Assembly (NCBI RefSeq): GCF_030064675.1
Contig: NZ_CP116413.1
Coordinates: 839,001 to 903,000 of the forward strand
Direction of reading: 5' to 3'
Source: Crossiella sp. CA-258035
GTDB lineage: Bacteria > Actinomycetota > Actinomycetes > Mycobacteriales > Pseudonocardiaceae
Length of the DNA stretch: 64,000 nucleotides
In this document: one piece after another, positions 9,280 through 54,448 of the stretch
Layout: every line of letters starts with the position of its first letter
Numbering within the stretch: position 1 is the first letter of the stretch
The notes under the pieces: model-generated
Told to the model about the DNA's origin: nothing
The model's database searches: none
Seen by the model: the letters and a program-made list of their open reading frames with translations, nothing else
Position numbers and translations under genes: made by a program

Positions 9280-9434
9280 CGGCCAACACACCGTCCCAGA
9301 TCGGCCAACACGGCGTACGAGAACGGCCAACACGGCGTACGAGAACGGCCAACACTCGCGGGGGTTTCAAGCTTCCCGGAGTGTTGGCCGAAGTCGTACG
9401 CCGTGTTGGCCGTTGTAGTACCTGGTGTTGGCCG
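9280..9434. repeat. 22-bp-phased CGGCCAACAC repeat cluster A (4 forward, 3 inverted)
   Basis: The 10-mer CGGCCAACAC starts at 9280, 9302, 9324 and 9346, exactly 22 bp apart. Its complement GTGTTGGCCG starts at 9381, 9403 and 9425, again 22 bp apart. Two successive units are identical over all 22 bp (spacer GGCGTACGAGAA). The two arms face each other around a 25-nt centre containing AAGCTT, so the whole block can form a hairpin. It ends 4 nt before the sdhB stop codon, so it may terminate transcription, bind a protein, or both. Confidence 0.9.
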
Positions 9435-39772: not shown

Positions 39773-39861
39773 CGGCCAACACCCGGTACAACTTCGGCCA
39801 ACACGCCAGGGCTTGGAAACGCAGCCGGTGTGTTGGCCGAAGTTGGACGGTGTGTTGGCCG
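39773..39861. repeat. 22-bp-phased CGGCCAACAC repeat cluster B (2 forward, 2 inverted)
   Basis: CGGCCAACAC starts at 39773 and 39795, and GTGTTGGCCG at 39830 and 39852, both pairs exactly 22 bp apart. AACTTCGGCCAACAC and GTGTTGGCCGAAGTT are perfect complements around a 25-nt centre. The cluster fills the gap between the convergent aldo-keto reductase and phosphosugar mutase genes and touches the mutase stop codon, so a bidirectional terminator role is plausible. Confidence 0.9.
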
Positions 39862-48817: not shown

Positions 48818-50038
48818 ATGAGTACCGACACCAAAGTTCAGTGCCGCTCCACGGTCGAGCGGTACTCGGACGCGCTGGTCGGGCTCTCCCGGAGCATCCA
48901 CGCCGAACCCGAGCTGGCCTTCGCTGAGCACCGCAGCGCCGAGAAGGTGGCCACCCTGCTGGCCGCGGAGGGTTTCGCGGTCGAACGGGGCACCTCGGGC
49001 CTGGACACCGCGCTCACCGCGACCTACGGCTCCGGTGACCTGGTGGTCGGGCTGTGCGCGGAGTACGACGCGCTGCCCGAGGTCGGGCATGCCTGCGGGC
49101 ACAACGTGATCGCCGCCTCCTCGGTCGGCGCCGCGCTCGCCCTGCGCGAGGTGGCCGACCGGCTCGGCATCACGGTCAAGCTGTTCGGCACCCCCGCCGA
49201 GGAGGCCGGTGGCGGCAAGGTGCTGATGCTGGAGCGCGGCGCCTTCGACGGCGTCTCGCTGGCCATGATGGTGCACCCGGCCCCGCACGAGACCTGCGCC
49301 TGCTCCTCGCTGGCCATCACCGACCTGGAAGTGGCCTACACCGGCCGCGCCTCGCACGCCGCGGCCGCGCCGCACCTCGGGGTGAACGCCGCGGACGCGC
49401 TGACCGTGGCCCAGGTCTCCATCGGCCTGCTGCGCCAGCACCTGGAGCACGGGCAGATGGTGCACGGCATCGTCACACACGGCGGCGCCGCGCCCAACAT
49501 CGTGCCCGCGCGCACCGCCGGGCTGTTCTACCTGCGAGCCGAGAACCTCGACTCGCTGACCCACCTGGACGAGCGGATCCGCCGCTGCTTCGAGGCAGGC
49601 GCGGTGGCCACCGGCTGCGAGTACGAGATCACCCAGGTGTCCCCGAACTACGCCGAGCTGGCCCCAGACCCGTGGCTGGCCATGGCGTACCGCGCTGCCG
49701 TGACGGAGCTCGGCCGGGAGCCGCTGAGCCCGGCCGAAGAGGCGAACCGCCAGACCGGCAGCACTGACATGGGCAACATCACCCACGCGTTGCCCGCCAT
49801 CCACCCCACGATCGCCATCGACTGTGGCAACTCGGTGAACCACCAACCGGAGTTCGCGGCCGCCTGCGCCTCGCCCTCCGCGGACAGGGCGGTGCTGGAC
49901 GGCGCGGTCGCGCTGGCCTGGACCGCGGTGGTCGCCGCCTCGGATGATGCCCAGCGAGCCCGGCTGCTCGCGGACACCGCTGATCGTGTGAACAGCCGCG
50001 TTGCCGTGCCAGCCACGGCAGGAGGTTTTGAGGCGTGA
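48818..50038 (+). CDS. M20 family amidohydrolase (AmiB1-like)
   Basis: A 406-residue zinc peptidase of the amidohydrolase/aminoacylase branch. 'GLCAEYDALPEVGHACGHN' carries the metal Asp/His, 'GTPAEEAGGGK' the catalytic Glu, and 'THGGAAPNIVPARTAG' the dimerisation-lid region. ATG 48818 follows AGGA by 10 nt; the open frame extends much further without coding character. Its stop overlaps the GTG of the next paralogue. Position equals amiB1 (Rv3306c) as remembered. Confidence 0.9.
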   Translation: MSTDTKVQCRSTVERYSDALVGLSRSIHAEPELAFAEHRSAEKVATLLAAEGFAVERGTSGLDTALTATYGSGDLVVGLCAEYDALPEVGHACGHNVIAASSVGAALALREVADRLGITVKLFGTPAEEAGGGKVLMLERGAFDGVSLAMMVHPAPHETCACSSLAITDLEVAYTGRASHAAAAPHLGVNAADALTVAQVSIGLLRQHLEHGQMVHGIVTHGGAAPNIVPARTAGLFYLRAENLDSLTHLDERIRRCFEAGAVATGCEYEITQVSPNYAELAPDPWLAMAYRAAVTELGREPLSPAEEANRQTGSTDMGNITHALPAIHPTIAIDCGNSVNHQPEFAAACASPSADRAVLDGAVALAWTAVVAASDDAQRARLLADTADRVNSRVAVPATAGGFEA

Positions 50039-51321
50039 CTGTCCTGGATTCCCGACCCGGCCCGCCGTTCGGACCGGAGTCCCGCGGACCCATCGACGTG
50101 CTGAGCCCCGGCTCCGGCCGCACCATGTCCACTGTGGCTGATCTTGGTGCCGGGCGGGGACCGTCCTGGCTGGACAAGTGGCTCGGCGAGAACCTCAGCC
50201 GGGTGGTGGCCTGGCGCCGGCACATCCACGCCAACCCCGAGCTGTCCCGCAACGAGCACAACACCACCAAGTTCCTCTTCCGCGAGCTGGCGGCCGCCGG
50301 CCTGCGGCCCAGGGTGCTGCCCGGCGGCACCGGCCTGATCTGCGAGGTGGGCAGCGGGTCCCGCTGCGTCGCGCTGCGCGCCGACATCGACGCGCTGCCG
50401 CTGACCGAGGACACCGGCCTGCCCTTCGCCTCCACCGTGGACGGCGTCTCGCACGCCTGCGGGCACGACGCGCACACCACCGTGCTGCTCGGCACCGCAC
50501 TGGCCCTGGCCTCGGCGGACTCGCTGCCCGGCCGGGTCCGGCTGATCTTCCAGCCGGCCGAGGAGGTCATGCCGGGCGGCGCGCTGGACGTGCTGGCCGC
50601 CGGTGGCCTCGACGGCGTGGAGCGGATCTTCGGCCTGCACTGCGCGCCCCGGCTCCAGGTGGGCAAGCTGGGCACCCGGATCGGCGCGATCACCTCCGCC
50701 AGCGACCTGCTGGAGGTCCGGCTGACCTCGCCGGGCGGCCACACCTCCCGCCCGCACCTGACCGCCGACCTGGTGCACGGCCTCGGCACGCTGATCACCC
50801 GCCTGCCCGAGCTGCTCACCCGCCGGGTCGACCCGCGCTCGGGCACCGTGCTGGTCTGGGGCGCCGTGCACGCGGGCGACGCCGCCAACGCCATCCCGCA
50901 GGACGGCCTGCTCCGCGGCACCCTGCGCACCGGCGACCGGGACACCTGGGCCGAGCTGGAACCGGTGGTCCGCGAGCTGATCGGCGCGCTGCTGGTGCCA
51001 CTGGGCATCGGCTTCGACCTGCTGCACCGCCGCGGCGTCCCGCCGGTGGTCAACGACCGGGAGAGCACCCGCCTGCTGCGCACCGCCACCCAGACCGCGC
51101 TGGGCGAGGACGCCATCACCGGCACCGAGCAGTCCTCCGGCGGCGAGGACTTCGCCTGGTACCTGGAACACGTGCCTGGCTCCTTCGCCCGCCTGGGCGT
51201 CTGGTCCGGCCAGGGACCGCAGAAGGACCTGCACCAACCCACCTTCGATCTGGACGAGCGCGCCCTGCCGGTCGGCATCCGCATCATGACCCAGGCCGCC
51301 CTCGACGCCCTCCAAGCCTGA
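50035..51321 (+). CDS. M20 family amidohydrolase (AmiA1-like)
   Basis: A 428-residue paralogue of the preceding enzyme with complete metal sites: 'LRADIDALPLTEDTGLPFAS', 'HACGHDAHTTVLLGTA' and 'FQPAEEVMPGGALD', then 'QSSGGEDFAWYLEHVPG'. It begins with a 45-residue extension before 'VAWRRHIHANPEL'. An internal ATG at 50126 could give a shorter product. It is translationally coupled (GTGA) to the AmiB1-like gene. The substrate is unknown; relatives release amino acids or indole acetic acid from conjugates. Repeat arm C begins 9 nt after its stop. Confidence 0.9.
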   Translation: MTVLDSRPGPPFGPESRGPIDVLSPGSGRTMSTVADLGAGRGPSWLDKWLGENLSRVVAWRRHIHANPELSRNEHNTTKFLFRELAAAGLRPRVLPGGTGLICEVGSGSRCVALRADIDALPLTEDTGLPFASTVDGVSHACGHDAHTTVLLGTALALASADSLPGRVRLIFQPAEEVMPGGALDVLAAGGLDGVERIFGLHCAPRLQVGKLGTRIGAITSASDLLEVRLTSPGGHTSRPHLTADLVHGLGTLITRLPELLTRRVDPRSGTVLVWGAVHAGDAANAIPQDGLLRGTLRTGDRDTWAELEPVVRELIGALLVPLGIGFDLLHRRGVPPVVNDRESTRLLRTATQTALGEDAITGTEQSSGGEDFAWYLEHVPGSFARLGVWSGQGPQKDLHQPTFDLDERALPVGIRIMTQAALDALQA

Positions 51322-51330
51322 CCCAGCCAC

Positions 51331-51390
51331 GTGTTGGCCGATCTCGTACGGTGAGTTGGCCGATCTCGTACGGGGTCTTGGCCGTTGTGG
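51331..51390. repeat. 22-bp-phased repeat, left arm C of the DUF559 unit
   Basis: Units GTGTTGGCCG, GAGTTGGCCG and GTCTTGGCCG start at 51331, 51353 and 51375. The 60 bp match the reverse complement of 52381-52440 at 58 positions. ATCTCGTACG spacers repeat between units. Confidence 0.9.
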
Positions 51391-51397
51391 CACGGAG

Positions 51398-51424
51398 TTG
51401 TCCACAACTGGACGGTTATCCACA
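51398..51424 (+). promoter_or_regulatory. Two DnaA-box-like 9-mers
   Basis: TTGTCCACA (51398-51406) and TTATCCACA (51416-51424) are exact matches to the actinomycete and E. coli DnaA boxes, in the same orientation and 18 bp apart. They lie between repeat arm C and the DUF559 gene. Binding is unproven. Confidence 0.45.
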
Positions 51425-51477
51425 GCTGGTCGATCGACGCCTGGCCCGCGCCCCGGGGCAGCGTCGATCGTCATGCC

Positions 51478-52377
51478 ATGCCCGCGACCACCCCGCTCCC
51501 CGTCCCCTGCACCCGTGACCAGGCCGTCGCCGCCCTCGGTGAACGCGGCCTGCGCACCGCGCTGAACTCCGGTTGGTTGACCCGGATCTGGCGGAACCTG
51601 TTCGTGCCCGTCAACCGCGCTCACGACCCCAGGACCAGGGCGCGGGCCGCCCTGCTGCTGGCCGGCCCGGAGGCCGCGCTGAGTGGGCCGACCGCCGCCG
51701 AGGTGTACGGGTGGACCCCGCTGGCCAGCTCGGATGTGCACATCACGGTGCCGTACTCGCGTTGGGCCAAGAACAGGCCGGGGCTGGTCGTGCACCACGA
51801 CCGGTTCACCCCGGAGGACGTCGTCGTGCTGGACGACCTGCGGGTGCTCGCCCCGGAGTACGTGCTCGCCGAGCTGCTGTGCGGCCGGGCGCACCGGGCT
51901 GGGTTCGCCTGCACGGACCAGGCGTTCCGGTCGCTACCGCCGGAACTCCAGGAGCAGCTCCGGCAGGAGATGGACACCCGGCTGAGGGCCAGGGACGATC
52001 ACCGCGGGGTAGGGCGGGCCCTCGTGCTGCTCGACCTGGCCACCGGGTTGCCGGAGTCACCGGCGGAGAGTTCGATGCTGCTGACCCTCGTGCTCGACGG
52101 CCGGTTCCCGATTCCGGAGCTCCAGCACGAGATCCTGGACTTGGACGGCCGGGTGGTGTGCAGGCTGGACTTCGCCTGGCCACGGCACCGGGTCGCGCTG
52201 GAGTACGACGGGTTCGAGGCACACGAGAACCGGGCGGAGCAGGACGCCGAGCGGGACGAGCGGATGGCCGGACGTGGCTGGCTCACGGTGCGGGCCGGCG
52301 CGCGGGACCTCCGGTCGCCGGAGGCGCTGTTCGGGCGACTCCGGGCGGCCTTCGAGAGCAGGGAACGACCGACGTGA
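51478..52377 (+). CDS. DUF559/Vsr-like endonuclease-domain protein with AbiEi-like N-terminus
   Basis: A 299-residue protein. The N-terminal 80 residues ('LNSGWLTRIWRNLFVPVNRAHDP', 'GPTAAEVYGW') resemble the winged-helix domain of AbiEi-type antitoxins. The C-terminal part, 'VCRLDFAWPRHRVALEYDGFE' followed by 'ERDERMAGRGWLTVRAGARDL', matches the DUF559 restriction-endonuclease-like fold with its D-x-(D/E)-YDG core. ATG 51478 begins 'MPATTPLPVP'; an inverted repeat CGATCGACGC/GCGTCGATCG lies just before it. The gene is boxed by 60-bp inverted repeats and splits two backbone genes. Such proteins are multicopy in many actinobacteria; their function is unknown. Confidence 0.8.
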   Translation: MPATTPLPVPCTRDQAVAALGERGLRTALNSGWLTRIWRNLFVPVNRAHDPRTRARAALLLAGPEAALSGPTAAEVYGWTPLASSDVHITVPYSRWAKNRPGLVVHHDRFTPEDVVVLDDLRVLAPEYVLAELLCGRAHRAGFACTDQAFRSLPPELQEQLRQEMDTRLRARDDHRGVGRALVLLDLATGLPESPAESSMLLTLVLDGRFPIPELQHEILDLDGRVVCRLDFAWPRHRVALEYDGFEAHENRAEQDAERDERMAGRGWLTVRAGARDLRSPEALFGRLRAAFESRERPT

Positions 52378-52380
52378 TGT

Positions 52381-52440
52381 CCACAACGGCCAAGACCCGG
52401 TACGAGATCGGCCAACTCACCGTACGAGAACGGCCAACAC
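52381..52440. repeat. 22-bp-phased repeat, right arm D of the DUF559 unit
   Basis: CGGCCAAGAC, CGGCCAACTC and CGGCCAACAC start at 52387, 52409 and 52431. It is the inverted partner of 51331-51390 with two mismatches. It begins 3 nt after the DUF559 stop codon and ends 10 nt before the stop of the opposite gene. Confidence 0.9.
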
Positions 52441-52450
52441 TCGGGTGGGG

Positions 52451-52909
52451 TTAGGCGTTGGGGCCTATGCCGTTGCAGGGGCGGGTGCGGAGGTCGTTGA
52501 CGTAGTCGGCTGGGGCGCCCGCGGCTTCGGCGGCGTCGGCGACCACGCCCACGTAGCGGGCCGAGGGGAGGCCGCCCTCGTAGGCGTCCAGGACGTAGAG
52601 CCAGGCCAGGACCGAGCCCTCCAGGGTCTGCACGCGGAGGCGGATCTTCTTGTAGAGGCCCAGCTCGGCGCCTTCCCAGCGGTCGAGGCGGTCCTCGTCC
52701 AAGGAGTTGACGTCGTAGAGGACCACGAAGACCTGGCTGCCGGGGTCTTCGACGATGGTGGAGAGCGCGCCCTCCCAGCCGAGGTCCTCGCCTCCGAAGG
52801 TCATTCGCCAGCCGACGAGCCACCCCGTACCGGCCATCGGCGAGTGCGGAGCACGCTCCGTCATCTGGTCCGGATCCATGTTGGACCCGTAAGCGGCATA
52901 GAGCGGCAC
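52451..52909 (-). CDS. Gamma-glutamylcyclotransferase-like protein (Rv3304-like)
   Basis: A 152-residue protein opening with 'LYAAYGSNMDPDQM', the glycine-rich substrate loop of the GGCT/AIG2 fold, followed by 'VFVVLYDVNSLDEDRLDRWEGAE' with a possible catalytic Glu and 'VLAWLYVLDAYEGG'. Some members act on gamma-glutamyl peptides; the actinobacterial group next to lpdA has no tested substrate. It is divergent from lpdA across 135 bp. Confidence 0.82.
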   Translation of the reverse strand: MPLYAAYGSNMDPDQMTERAPHSPMAGTGWLVGWRMTFGGEDLGWEGALSTIVEDPGSQVFVVLYDVNSLDEDRLDRWEGAELGLYKKIRLRVQTLEGSVLAWLYVLDAYEGGLPSARYVGVVADAAEAAGAPADYVNDLRTRPCNGIGPNA

Positions 52910-53044
52910 GGCCCTAGCCTAGCGACCCGTTCGCGGCATCGGGACGCGCCGTGCGCACAGCCTCCGAACTGACCCCGGACGGGTAGCGCGTACGGTTGGA
53001 CCCGCCGACAAACCTGACCGCACCACCCACCACAGGAGGACCCC

Positions 53045-54448
53045 GTGACCCGCATCGTGATCATGGGAGGCGGGCCGGCCGGATACGAAGCCGCGCTGGT
53101 CGGCGCCCAGCACGGAGCCGACGTCACCCTGGTGGAGAGCGACGGCCTCGGCGGCGCCTGCGTGCTGTACGACTGCGTGCCCTCCAAGACTTTCATCGCC
53201 TCGGCAGGCGCCCGCTCCGCCTTCCGCAACGCGCCCGAGCTGGGCATCAGCACCGGGGACGGGCCGATCGGCGTCGAGCTGCCGGTGGTGCACGGGCGGG
53301 TCAAGGGGCTGGCGCTGGCGCAGTCGGCGGACATCAGGGCGCGGGTGCAGCGCGAGGGTGTGCGGATCATGAACGGGCACGCCAGGCTGTGCGACGACGC
53401 GCCGGGCCTGGCCCAGCACCGGGTGGCGGTGCGCGGCGCGGACGGCTCGGTGGAGAAGCTGGCCGCCGACGTGGTGCTGATCGCCACCGGCGCGAACCCG
53501 CGCATCCTGCCCGGCGCGCAGCCCGACGGCGAGCGCATCCTGACCTGGCGGCAGATCTACGACCTGCCCGAGCTGCCCGAGCACCTGGTGGTGATCGGCT
53601 CCGGCGTCACCGGGGCCGAGTTCGCCTCTGCCTACACCGAGATGGGCGTCAAGGTCACCGTGGTCTCCAGCCGGGACCGCATCCTGCCGCACGAGGACGC
53701 CGACGCGGCCGCGGTGCTGGAGGACGTGTTCACCGAGCGGGGCACCGCGCTGTTCAAGCACGCGCGGGCGGACAAGGTCGAGCGGACCAGTGGCGGGGTC
53801 AAGGTCTTCCTGGCCGACGGGCGGACCGTGGAGGCCAGCCACGCGCTGATGACCGTCGGCTCGATCCCGAACACCGCCGACATCGGCCTGGACCGGGTCG
53901 GCATCGAGCCGGGGCCCGGCGGGTTCGTGCCGGTCGACCGGGTCTCCCGGACCACCGTGCCCGGCATCTACGCCGCCGGTGACTGCACCGGCCTGCTGAT
54001 GCTCGCCTCGGTCGCGGCCATGCAGGGCCGGATCGCGATGTGGCACGCGCTCGGCCAGGGCGTGCAGCCGATCAAGCTCAAGACGGTGGCCGCCAACGTC
54101 TTCACCCACCCGGAGATCGCCACCGTCGGCATCAGCCAGCAGGCCATCGACTCCGGCGAGGTGCCTGCCCGCACGATCATGCTGCCGCTGGCCACCAACG
54201 CGCGGGCCAAGATGGAGGGGCTGCGCCGCGGTTTCGTGAAGCTGTTCTGCCGCCCGGCCACCGGCGTGGTGATCGGCGGCGTGGTGGTCGCCCCGGTGGC
54301 CAGCGAGCTGATCACGCCGATCGCGCTGGCCGTGCAGAACCAGCTGACCGTGGAACACCTGGCCTACACCTTCTCGGTCTACCCCTCGCTGTCCGGTTCG
54401 ATCACCGAGGCCGGGCGCAAGCTGATGCGCCACGACGACCTGGACTAG
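53045..54448 (+). CDS. lpdA: NAD(P)H-quinone reductase of the LpdA type
   Basis: A 467-residue flavoprotein disulfide-reductase homologue. FAD fold 'IVIMGGGPAGYEAALVG', the paired cysteines in 'GGACVLYDCVPSKTF', NAD fold 'LVVIGSGVTGAEFASAY' and 'GIYAAGDCTG' are present. The C-terminal His-Glu dyad of true lipoamide dehydrogenases ('HPTLSE') is replaced by 'VYPSLSGSI'. This is the reported pattern for M. tuberculosis LpdA (Rv3303c), which reduces quinones. GGAGG precedes GTG 53045. Confidence 0.9.
   Translation: MTRIVIMGGGPAGYEAALVGAQHGADVTLVESDGLGGACVLYDCVPSKTFIASAGARSAFRNAPELGISTGDGPIGVELPVVHGRVKGLALAQSADIRARVQREGVRIMNGHARLCDDAPGLAQHRVAVRGADGSVEKLAADVVLIATGANPRILPGAQPDGERILTWRQIYDLPELPEHLVVIGSGVTGAEFASAYTEMGVKVTVVSSRDRILPHEDADAAAVLEDVFTERGTALFKHARADKVERTSGGVKVFLADGRTVEASHALMTVGSIPNTADIGLDRVGIEPGPGGFVPVDRVSRTTVPGIYAAGDCTGLLMLASVAAMQGRIAMWHALGQGVQPIKLKTVAANVFTHPEIATVGISQQAIDSGEVPARTIMLPLATNARAKMEGLRRGFVKLFCRPATGVVIGGVVVAPVASELITPIALAVQNQLTVEHLAYTFSVYPSLSGSITEAGRKLMRHDDLD

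Follow-up and report, generated by a model that had tools for sequence, protein, structure and literature searches.

Why is one gene of a Crossiella chromosome enclosed by two inverted copies of a repeat that also occurs elsewhere in the same chromosome? The question arises in a stretch of 64,000 nucleotides from Crossiella sp. CA-258035 (contig NZ_CP116413.1, positions 839,001 to 903,000), which is called the window here. Its genome (G000) is a single contig of 9.17 Mb. The features needed for the argument are listed below, with positions counted from the first letter of the window.

9280..9434, no strand: gene-less copy, two back-to-back arrays of the window's 22-bp unit (RNA-fold z -9.7)
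39773..39861, no strand: gene-less copy of the window's 22-bp unit, between convergent genes (RNA-fold z -8.3)
50035..51321, plus strand: upstream neighbour, M20 peptidase; conserved, given as context only
51322..51390, plus strand: arm C, three direct 22-bp units of the form (G)TTGGCCG-N5-GTAC-N5, directly 3' of the M20 peptidase stop codon
51398..51406, plus strand: DnaA-box-like sequence TTGTCCACA, upstream of the nuclease gene
51416..51424, plus strand: DnaA-box-like sequence TTATCCACA, 18 bp after the first
51478..52377, plus strand: nuclease gene (299 aa), with an AbiEi-like N-terminal part and a C-terminal DUF559 / MTES_1575 domain
52381..52449, minus strand: arm D, the three units of arm C inverted, flanked by the stop codons of two convergent genes (DUF559 and GGACT)
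52451..52909, minus strand: downstream neighbour, AIG2/GGACT protein; conserved, given as context only

A nuclease gene boxed by inverted arrays

A sequence-only reading of the window had described two arms that match each other and a single AbiEi-like/DUF559 gene between them. Both descriptions hold. The stretch 51331-51390 is the reverse complement of 52381-52440 except at two of the 60 positions (58 match), and each arm carries three TTGGCCG motifs at a spacing of 22 bp. One gene, with PADLOC and Pfam matches, lies between them. A repeat search extends the arms to 69 nt each (51322-51390 and 52381-52449, 93% complementary). The inverted-repeat score of the locus is 58.0. For comparison, 670 random windows of similar size gave a mean of 12.0, a 99th percentile of 18.0, and a maximum of 21.5; all of them came from named loci of the clade itself, and none from the distant DUF559 set. 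This null distribution rules out a chance origin of the boxing at the window locus.

Both arms follow stop codons, as would be expected of ordinary terminator hairpins that flank the gene by accident. This explanation is contradicted by the random-window distribution, by the 21-22-bp periodicity, and by the genome-wide counts of the private interspersed families described below, and it is extremely improbable. When folded as RNA, arm C alone gave a z of -2.8 and arm D alone 0.1. Terminators with a T run were absent within 51000-53000, and no known RNA family was found within 50900-53100.

The product of the gene is a predicted two-part protein. Its match to Pfam PF04480 (DUF559) scores 20.9 bits at a cut-off of 20.6, and the AbiEi-like N-terminus is recognized by PADLOC with an E value of 6e-13. 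Among 19 aligned homologues, DUF559 is detected in 18 and MTES_1575 likewise in 18. The N-terminal similarity to AbiEi is predicted for all 19 by the PADLOC models and for just one by Pfam AbiEi_1. A profile search of the PDB returned a weak match only, to an 'Endonuclease-Like Protein' (3hrl, E 0.018). The putative active site comprises E197, D231, E242, and D244, which we take to be catalytic from the fold. D231, E242, and D244 are kept in all 87 clade homologues, and E197 in 86 of them. The dN/dS ratio of the gene is 0.13-0.23 in three pairs, which indicates purifying selection. DUF559 is still listed in Pfam as a domain of unknown function, and homologues reach up to 14 matches per genome in the order.

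The neighbours of the gene are M20 peptidases, GGACT, and a pyridine-nucleotide oxidoreductase, and an AbiEii toxin is absent among the five proteins scanned. A profile scan of the boxed gene found no transposase inside the box. Carriage of the gene by a phage or plasmid was also considered and rejected, since the protein has no match at E 1e-5 in 72,556 plasmid and 50,697 phage records.

Upstream of the gene, the motif TT[AG]TCCACA, similar to the DnaA box, lies within 250 nt in 87 of 101 clade loci, and 63 of the 101 have two or more. It occurs at two of 24 distant loci and at none of four truncated homologues. In 3178 background windows, the motif was present once or more in six and twice or more in one. 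The spacing of adjacent boxes is highly regular, at 17-20 bp in 64 of 65 pairs.

The repeat family across the genome

The family of the arms had been read as recurring at 9.3 and 39.8 kb of the window, and copies are indeed found at 9280-9434 and 39773-39861. A genome search for the 22-bp unit, which had been proposed along with that reading, was carried out with the pattern TTGGCCG-N5-GTAC-N6-TTGGCCG. It gave 211 exact two-unit matches in the window's genome and 0 with the reversed control. With these matches and the two window copies, the arms are not limited to the gene locus. BLAST with arm C returned at least 71 hits in the same genome (the best 40 of 127 candidates were scored; such hit counts are lower bounds here wherever 40 of more candidates were scored). 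The hits cluster into at least 40 sites, and both orientations lie within a few hundred bases of each other at 29 of 40. Among the arm C matches listed, the pair reported here is the only one that boxes a gene at short distance, and the next closest pair of sites lies 4.5 kb apart.

The placement of the repeats is far from uniform. According to simple codon-based gene calls of our own making, 25 of 37 repeat sites are between convergent genes, 11 are between tandem genes, one is between divergent genes, and none is inside a gene. The background is 129 convergent among 898 intergenic regions. Sites of gene-less repeat pairs can be occupied in one species and unoccupied in another. No target duplication was seen by eye in six site alignments. 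A blind tandem-lag count at lag 22 gave 8, 17, 5, 6, 0, and 2 for the six positive genomes, compared with 0, 2, and 0 for three others; the same count at lag 21 is uninformative because lags divisible by 3 are swamped.

Two structured segments of about 650-700 bp, 85% identical and with no obvious gene, were observed between arrays in a second Crossiella genome (G002:C1:1930835-1931540 and 1997945-1998580; L138 and L142). A third partial copy in that genome and partly similar stretches in G000 make them look like a separate repeat.

A distribution of this kind could also be that of binding sites. The gene product would then be a chromosome-wide DNA-binding regulator or a termination or nucleoid factor, the arrays would serve the host as its binding sites and as bidirectional terminators, and the arms would be autoregulatory operators. 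The portion of PMC7319586 consulted describes AbiEi proteins whose own promoters contain the 23-bp inverted repeats to which they bind. A spacing of 21-22 bp suits binding on the same face of the helix, the sites avoid genes and favour convergent gene ends, and strong RNA hairpins are predicted at the two gene-less sites of the window. However, one arm lies downstream of the gene, besides the upstream one, and the putative nuclease residues are near-invariant. As detailed below, relocated copies keep their arms, and two genomes that are about 95% identical carry different repeat types at no fewer than five sites, a difference that is hard to reach via point mutation. We regard a regulator as unlikely.

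An old gene in a dynamic box

Homologues were gathered from 60 genomes and 80 named contigs, which yielded 101 clade loci, or 89 after removal of duplicates. Of the distinct loci, 69 have kept both the neighbours and the orientation, six are flipped in place, and 14 lie elsewhere, with an uncertain placement for L069 at a contig edge. The window locus is thus common to 75 of the 89 distinct homologues. Boxing by inverted repeats was found at 81 of the 89, namely 64 of the 69 in place, five of the six flipped, and 12 of the 14 elsewhere, and eight loci are without it. With duplicates included, 91 of 101 clade loci exceed the 99th percentile of the 670 control windows, and the best tandem lag is 21 or 22 bp in 87 of these 91. 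The 14 relocated copies are not 14 independent moves, since three Kibdelosporangium copies sit at one common locus, and so do L091 with L104 and L005 with L007.

The sequence-only reading took the gene and its boundaries for a discrete inserted module. The module part of that proposal is borne out by the relocated and flipped copies, most of which are still boxed, and by a cassette exchange in Crossiella sp. S99.2 described below: arm, gene, and arm are exchanged and relocated as one unit. A recent insertion at the window locus is rejected, since the gene resides there in so many relatives. No empty version of the gene's own site was seen, with the neighbour-gene loci of 18 genomes known by their coordinates only. 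The gene is old at its locus, and the box is dynamic.

Four homologues stop short of the nuclease domain, at 179-198 aa counted from the match start, and none of the four is boxed. They need not be independent cases and possibly belong to one lineage.

Two further loci deserve a mention. In the Crossiella genome G003, a partial DUF559 match (residues 5-175) lies beside GGACT at the ancestral locus, and a full boxed gene is found elsewhere (G003:C1:3943384-3943893 and 7910695-7911573; L004). The flanks of a boxed clade cassette in Amycolatopsis taiwanensis (L073) surround, in four other genomes, regions chosen for their distant DUF559 genes (L177, L184, L186, and L187; the gene of L177 was not re-detected). 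These flanks are a possible hotspot.

Private repeat families that change with the gene

The repeat sequence is particular to a species or genus, differs between genera, and changes with the gene. Four boxing arms were tested, each on 22 genomes. The arm of Prauserella isguenensis (G035) matches its own genome at least 42 times and the 21 others not at all. The Actinophytocola gossypii arm (G033) has at least 68 own-genome hits and four weak hits in one of the 21 others. For the arm of Crossiella sp. S99.2 (G001), at least 79 hits were obtained in its own genome, six weak ones in the sister G002, and none in the 20 others. In three congeners the window arm gives at least 56, 48, and 30 hits, whereas 18 genomes from other genera give none.

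A wider comparison of 15 arms with 200-433 kb samples of nine genomes produced a largely diagonal matrix. The arm of G024 has no copy in 200 kb of its own genome. In a Labedaea genome with two boxed copies, one arm has no copies in 400 kb and the other has two sites. The same 15 arms gave no hits in the samples from three genomes in which the gene is truncated or absent. A further copy of the locus's own arm is present within about 20 kb at 13 of 75 named boxed loci. Arms matched other loci 120 times, mostly in related genera, a count in which some matches are one locus entered twice. These observations and the eight unboxed loci weigh against the pairing of enzyme and private repeats proposed below.

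The sharing of arms declines with the divergence of the proteins. Among 80 boxed loci (L020, L021, and L110 were left out), arm sequence is shared by 13 of 13 pairs with at least 90% protein identity, 32 of 43 at 80-90%, 48 of 197 at 60-80%, 43 of 1759 at 45-60%, and five of 1148 below 45%. This suggests that the enzyme and the repeats evolve as partners.

Boxing extends to distant DUF559 genes with 27-34% identity, a set of 25 loci from which L177 was left out for lack of a match. By the threshold used for the clade, 11 of these 24 are boxed, mostly by palindromic elements that do not have the 21-22-bp tandem period. The arms of two boxed distant genes were searched genome-wide, and both have private families; the two were chosen among the 11 and are no random sample. 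The distant gene in G009 is boxed by a 57-bp hairpin element that occurs in at least 40 places (best 40 of 357 candidates), of which 38 are away from the gene. The copies away from the gene are 95-98% identical, and there are none in 18 other genomes. The distant arm of G005 has at least 51 hits in its own genome and one weak hit in one of 18 others. The G009 hairpin repeat appears young (e.g., L253-L256) and offers good material for the study of insertion boundaries.

Some other enzyme might spread the repeats, with the DUF559 gene as a passenger enclosed by two copies in the manner of a composite element. In favour of this, matches to Y1-type transposases are present in G001, G002, G008, and G026. 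On the other hand, the boxes around this gene family consist of unrelated repeats in many genera, distant DUF559 genes are boxed as well, and relocated copies still have their boxes. A Y1/RAYT-type transposase (PF01797) was matched in none of 18 of the 22 genomes, a group that includes the window's genome, G003, G033, and G035. A passenger role is quite improbable, and mobilisation by a resident Y1/RAYT enzyme is unsupported in the window's genome, which has no Y1 match.

Cassette exchange in Crossiella sp. S99.2

Aligned blocks that add up to 240 kb show about 95% identity between the sister genomes G002 and G001 (S99.2), and G000 stands at about 89% from both. The nuclease gene departs from this order. 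Its DNA identity is 77% between G002 and G001 and 91% between G002 and G000, against 97-98% for the neighbours in the G002-G001 comparison. For the same sister pair, dS is 0.70 in the gene and 0.066 and 0.127 in the neighbours, and identity drops and then recovers near the arms. The dS contrast indicates that the cassette was exchanged in G001, with a change that starts and ends near the arms.

The arms of G001 are of a second type, based on TTGGSCCAA with a 22-bp period. In the compared stretches, with the gene's own arms included, G001 has eight new-type motif clusters and no old ones, G002 has 11 old and no new, and G000 has seven old and no new. Away from the gene, five of the seven new-type clusters of G001 (400 kb) correspond to old-type repeats between the same flanks in G002, and at two of them also in G000. 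At about 921.95 kb of G001:C22 (~921905-921996), an old-type stretch (87% over 46 nt) adjoins a new-type copy. Other weak BLAST matches of the old-type arm in G001 fall on new-type copies, with TTGGCC-N6-GTAC as the common core. Diverged old-type copies are kept elsewhere in G001, with at least 48 hits genome-wide.

These patterns could reflect a homing-like takeover. A variant arm-nuclease-arm cassette would replace the resident one by recombination, its repeats would then overwrite the old family at the same sites with positions kept, and S99.2 would be part-way through the process. We put this forward as a tentative and rather doubtful scenario. Independent insertion at favoured sites may be the alternative to replacement in place.

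The same exchange would fit a gene of a defence or toxin-antitoxin-like kind, with flanking repeats that serve solely as substrates for the recombination by which alleles are exchanged, and the PADLOC AbiEi match points the same way. However, the neighbours are of a housekeeping type, the five proteins scanned include no AbiEii toxin, and the plasmid and phage records hold no match. Dozens of gene-less copies would also be left unexplained. A defence role of this kind is very unlikely.

A proposed mechanism

The evidence probably describes a DUF559 gene that is the partner enzyme of private interspersed repeats. The pair would be REPtron-like and built on a PD-(D/E)XK-type (Vsr/DUF559) nuclease that takes the place of the HUH transposase. 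The co-distribution of gene and repeats suggests that the nuclease may act on its own repeats. The AbiEi-like N-terminal part would read the 22-bp unit, which we infer from the binding of 23-bp inverted repeats by AbiEi proteins in the part of PMC7319586 cited above. The nuclease domain would cut or nick at the arrays, as its near-invariant residues and purifying selection imply. Host repair or replication might then copy an array into another site. We know of no strand-transfer activity for a PD-(D/E)XK nuclease alone, and thus copying would need host functions. The autonomous form would be arm-gene-arm, with the gene-less inverted pairs as its non-autonomous, REPIN-like counterpart. Expression may be tied to replication via the conserved DnaA-box-like pair.

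If this proposal is true, many DUF559 proteins are enzymes of private repeat families, and the interspersed palindromes of actinobacteria gain a partner enzyme. A REP-type lifestyle would have arisen more than once, with unrelated enzymes, and many natural enzyme-site pairs would be at hand for studying changes of DNA specificity. If the takeover scenario also holds, repeat-nuclease pairs that rewrite themselves in this way could be common among the DUF559 genes of actinobacteria. The spread and replacement of repeats can be tested directly in the two sister genomes, whose families were swapped.

Comparison with known systems

No paper that links DUF559 with such repeats was found in the openly licensed PMC literature. 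Several known systems share parts of the arrangement. The Crossiella protein resembles DUF559/Vsr-like nucleases in its profile match and in a conserved acidic core, a likeness predicted from sequence. VsrA of Caulobacter also has a DUF559 domain of the PD-(D/E)XK superfamily, and the portion of PMC12907096 consulted connects it with cytosine methylation and, by prediction, with mismatch repair. The Crossiella protein differs from VsrA in its fused AbiEi-like part and in the private repeats that accompany it.

AbiEi antitoxins of type IV toxin-antitoxin systems are similar in the predicted N-terminal part (PADLOC, 19 of 19), and their binding to 23-bp inverted repeats, as described in part of PMC7319586, has a counterpart in the inverted 22-bp units that box the Crossiella gene. 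However, the Crossiella protein has a nuclease-type C-terminus, no toxin gene adjoins it, and the repeats are dispersed genome-wide. The AbiEii nucleotidyltransferase that neighbours the antitoxin in AbiE systems is likewise missing among the proteins scanned here. CGTC-tagged REPs are a case in which REP-type repeats were reported without a dedicated transposase (PMC3733652, in part). They differ from the Crossiella repeats in phylum and sequence, and that part of the source describes no nuclease partner.

The RAYT/REP systems are the closest in organisation. In the portions of PMC2817692, PMC3116915, and PMC3733652 cited here, the RAYT gene is flanked by two inverted repeats and the box acts as a unit, the repeats are dispersed as inverted doublets at sites that lie downstream of genes or separate convergent ones, and enzyme and repeat change together. 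Such dispersed inverted doublets are called REPINs (PMC3116915, in part), and the TnpA-REP enzymes are HUH proteins that have co-evolved with their REPs (PMC8266576, in part). Here too, the enzyme gene has flanking inverted repeats (81 of 89 distinct loci), and the repeat is dispersed outside genes, often as inverted doublets, with none in the samples for G024 and one Labedaea arm. Enzyme and flanking repeat co-diverge as well. The differences are an actinobacterial host, 21-22-bp tandem arrays as the units of the Crossiella clade, and a GTAG tag that is not evident in the Crossiella unit. The HUH/Y1 transposase (PF01797) is replaced by a gene that matches DUF559 and MTES_1575 only. The comparison with RAYT/REP pairs that the sequence-only reading had drawn is therefore upheld for boxing, dispersal, and co-divergence and has to be given up for the enzyme, which is an AbiEi-like protein with DUF559/MTES_1575 and not an HUH Y1 transposase.
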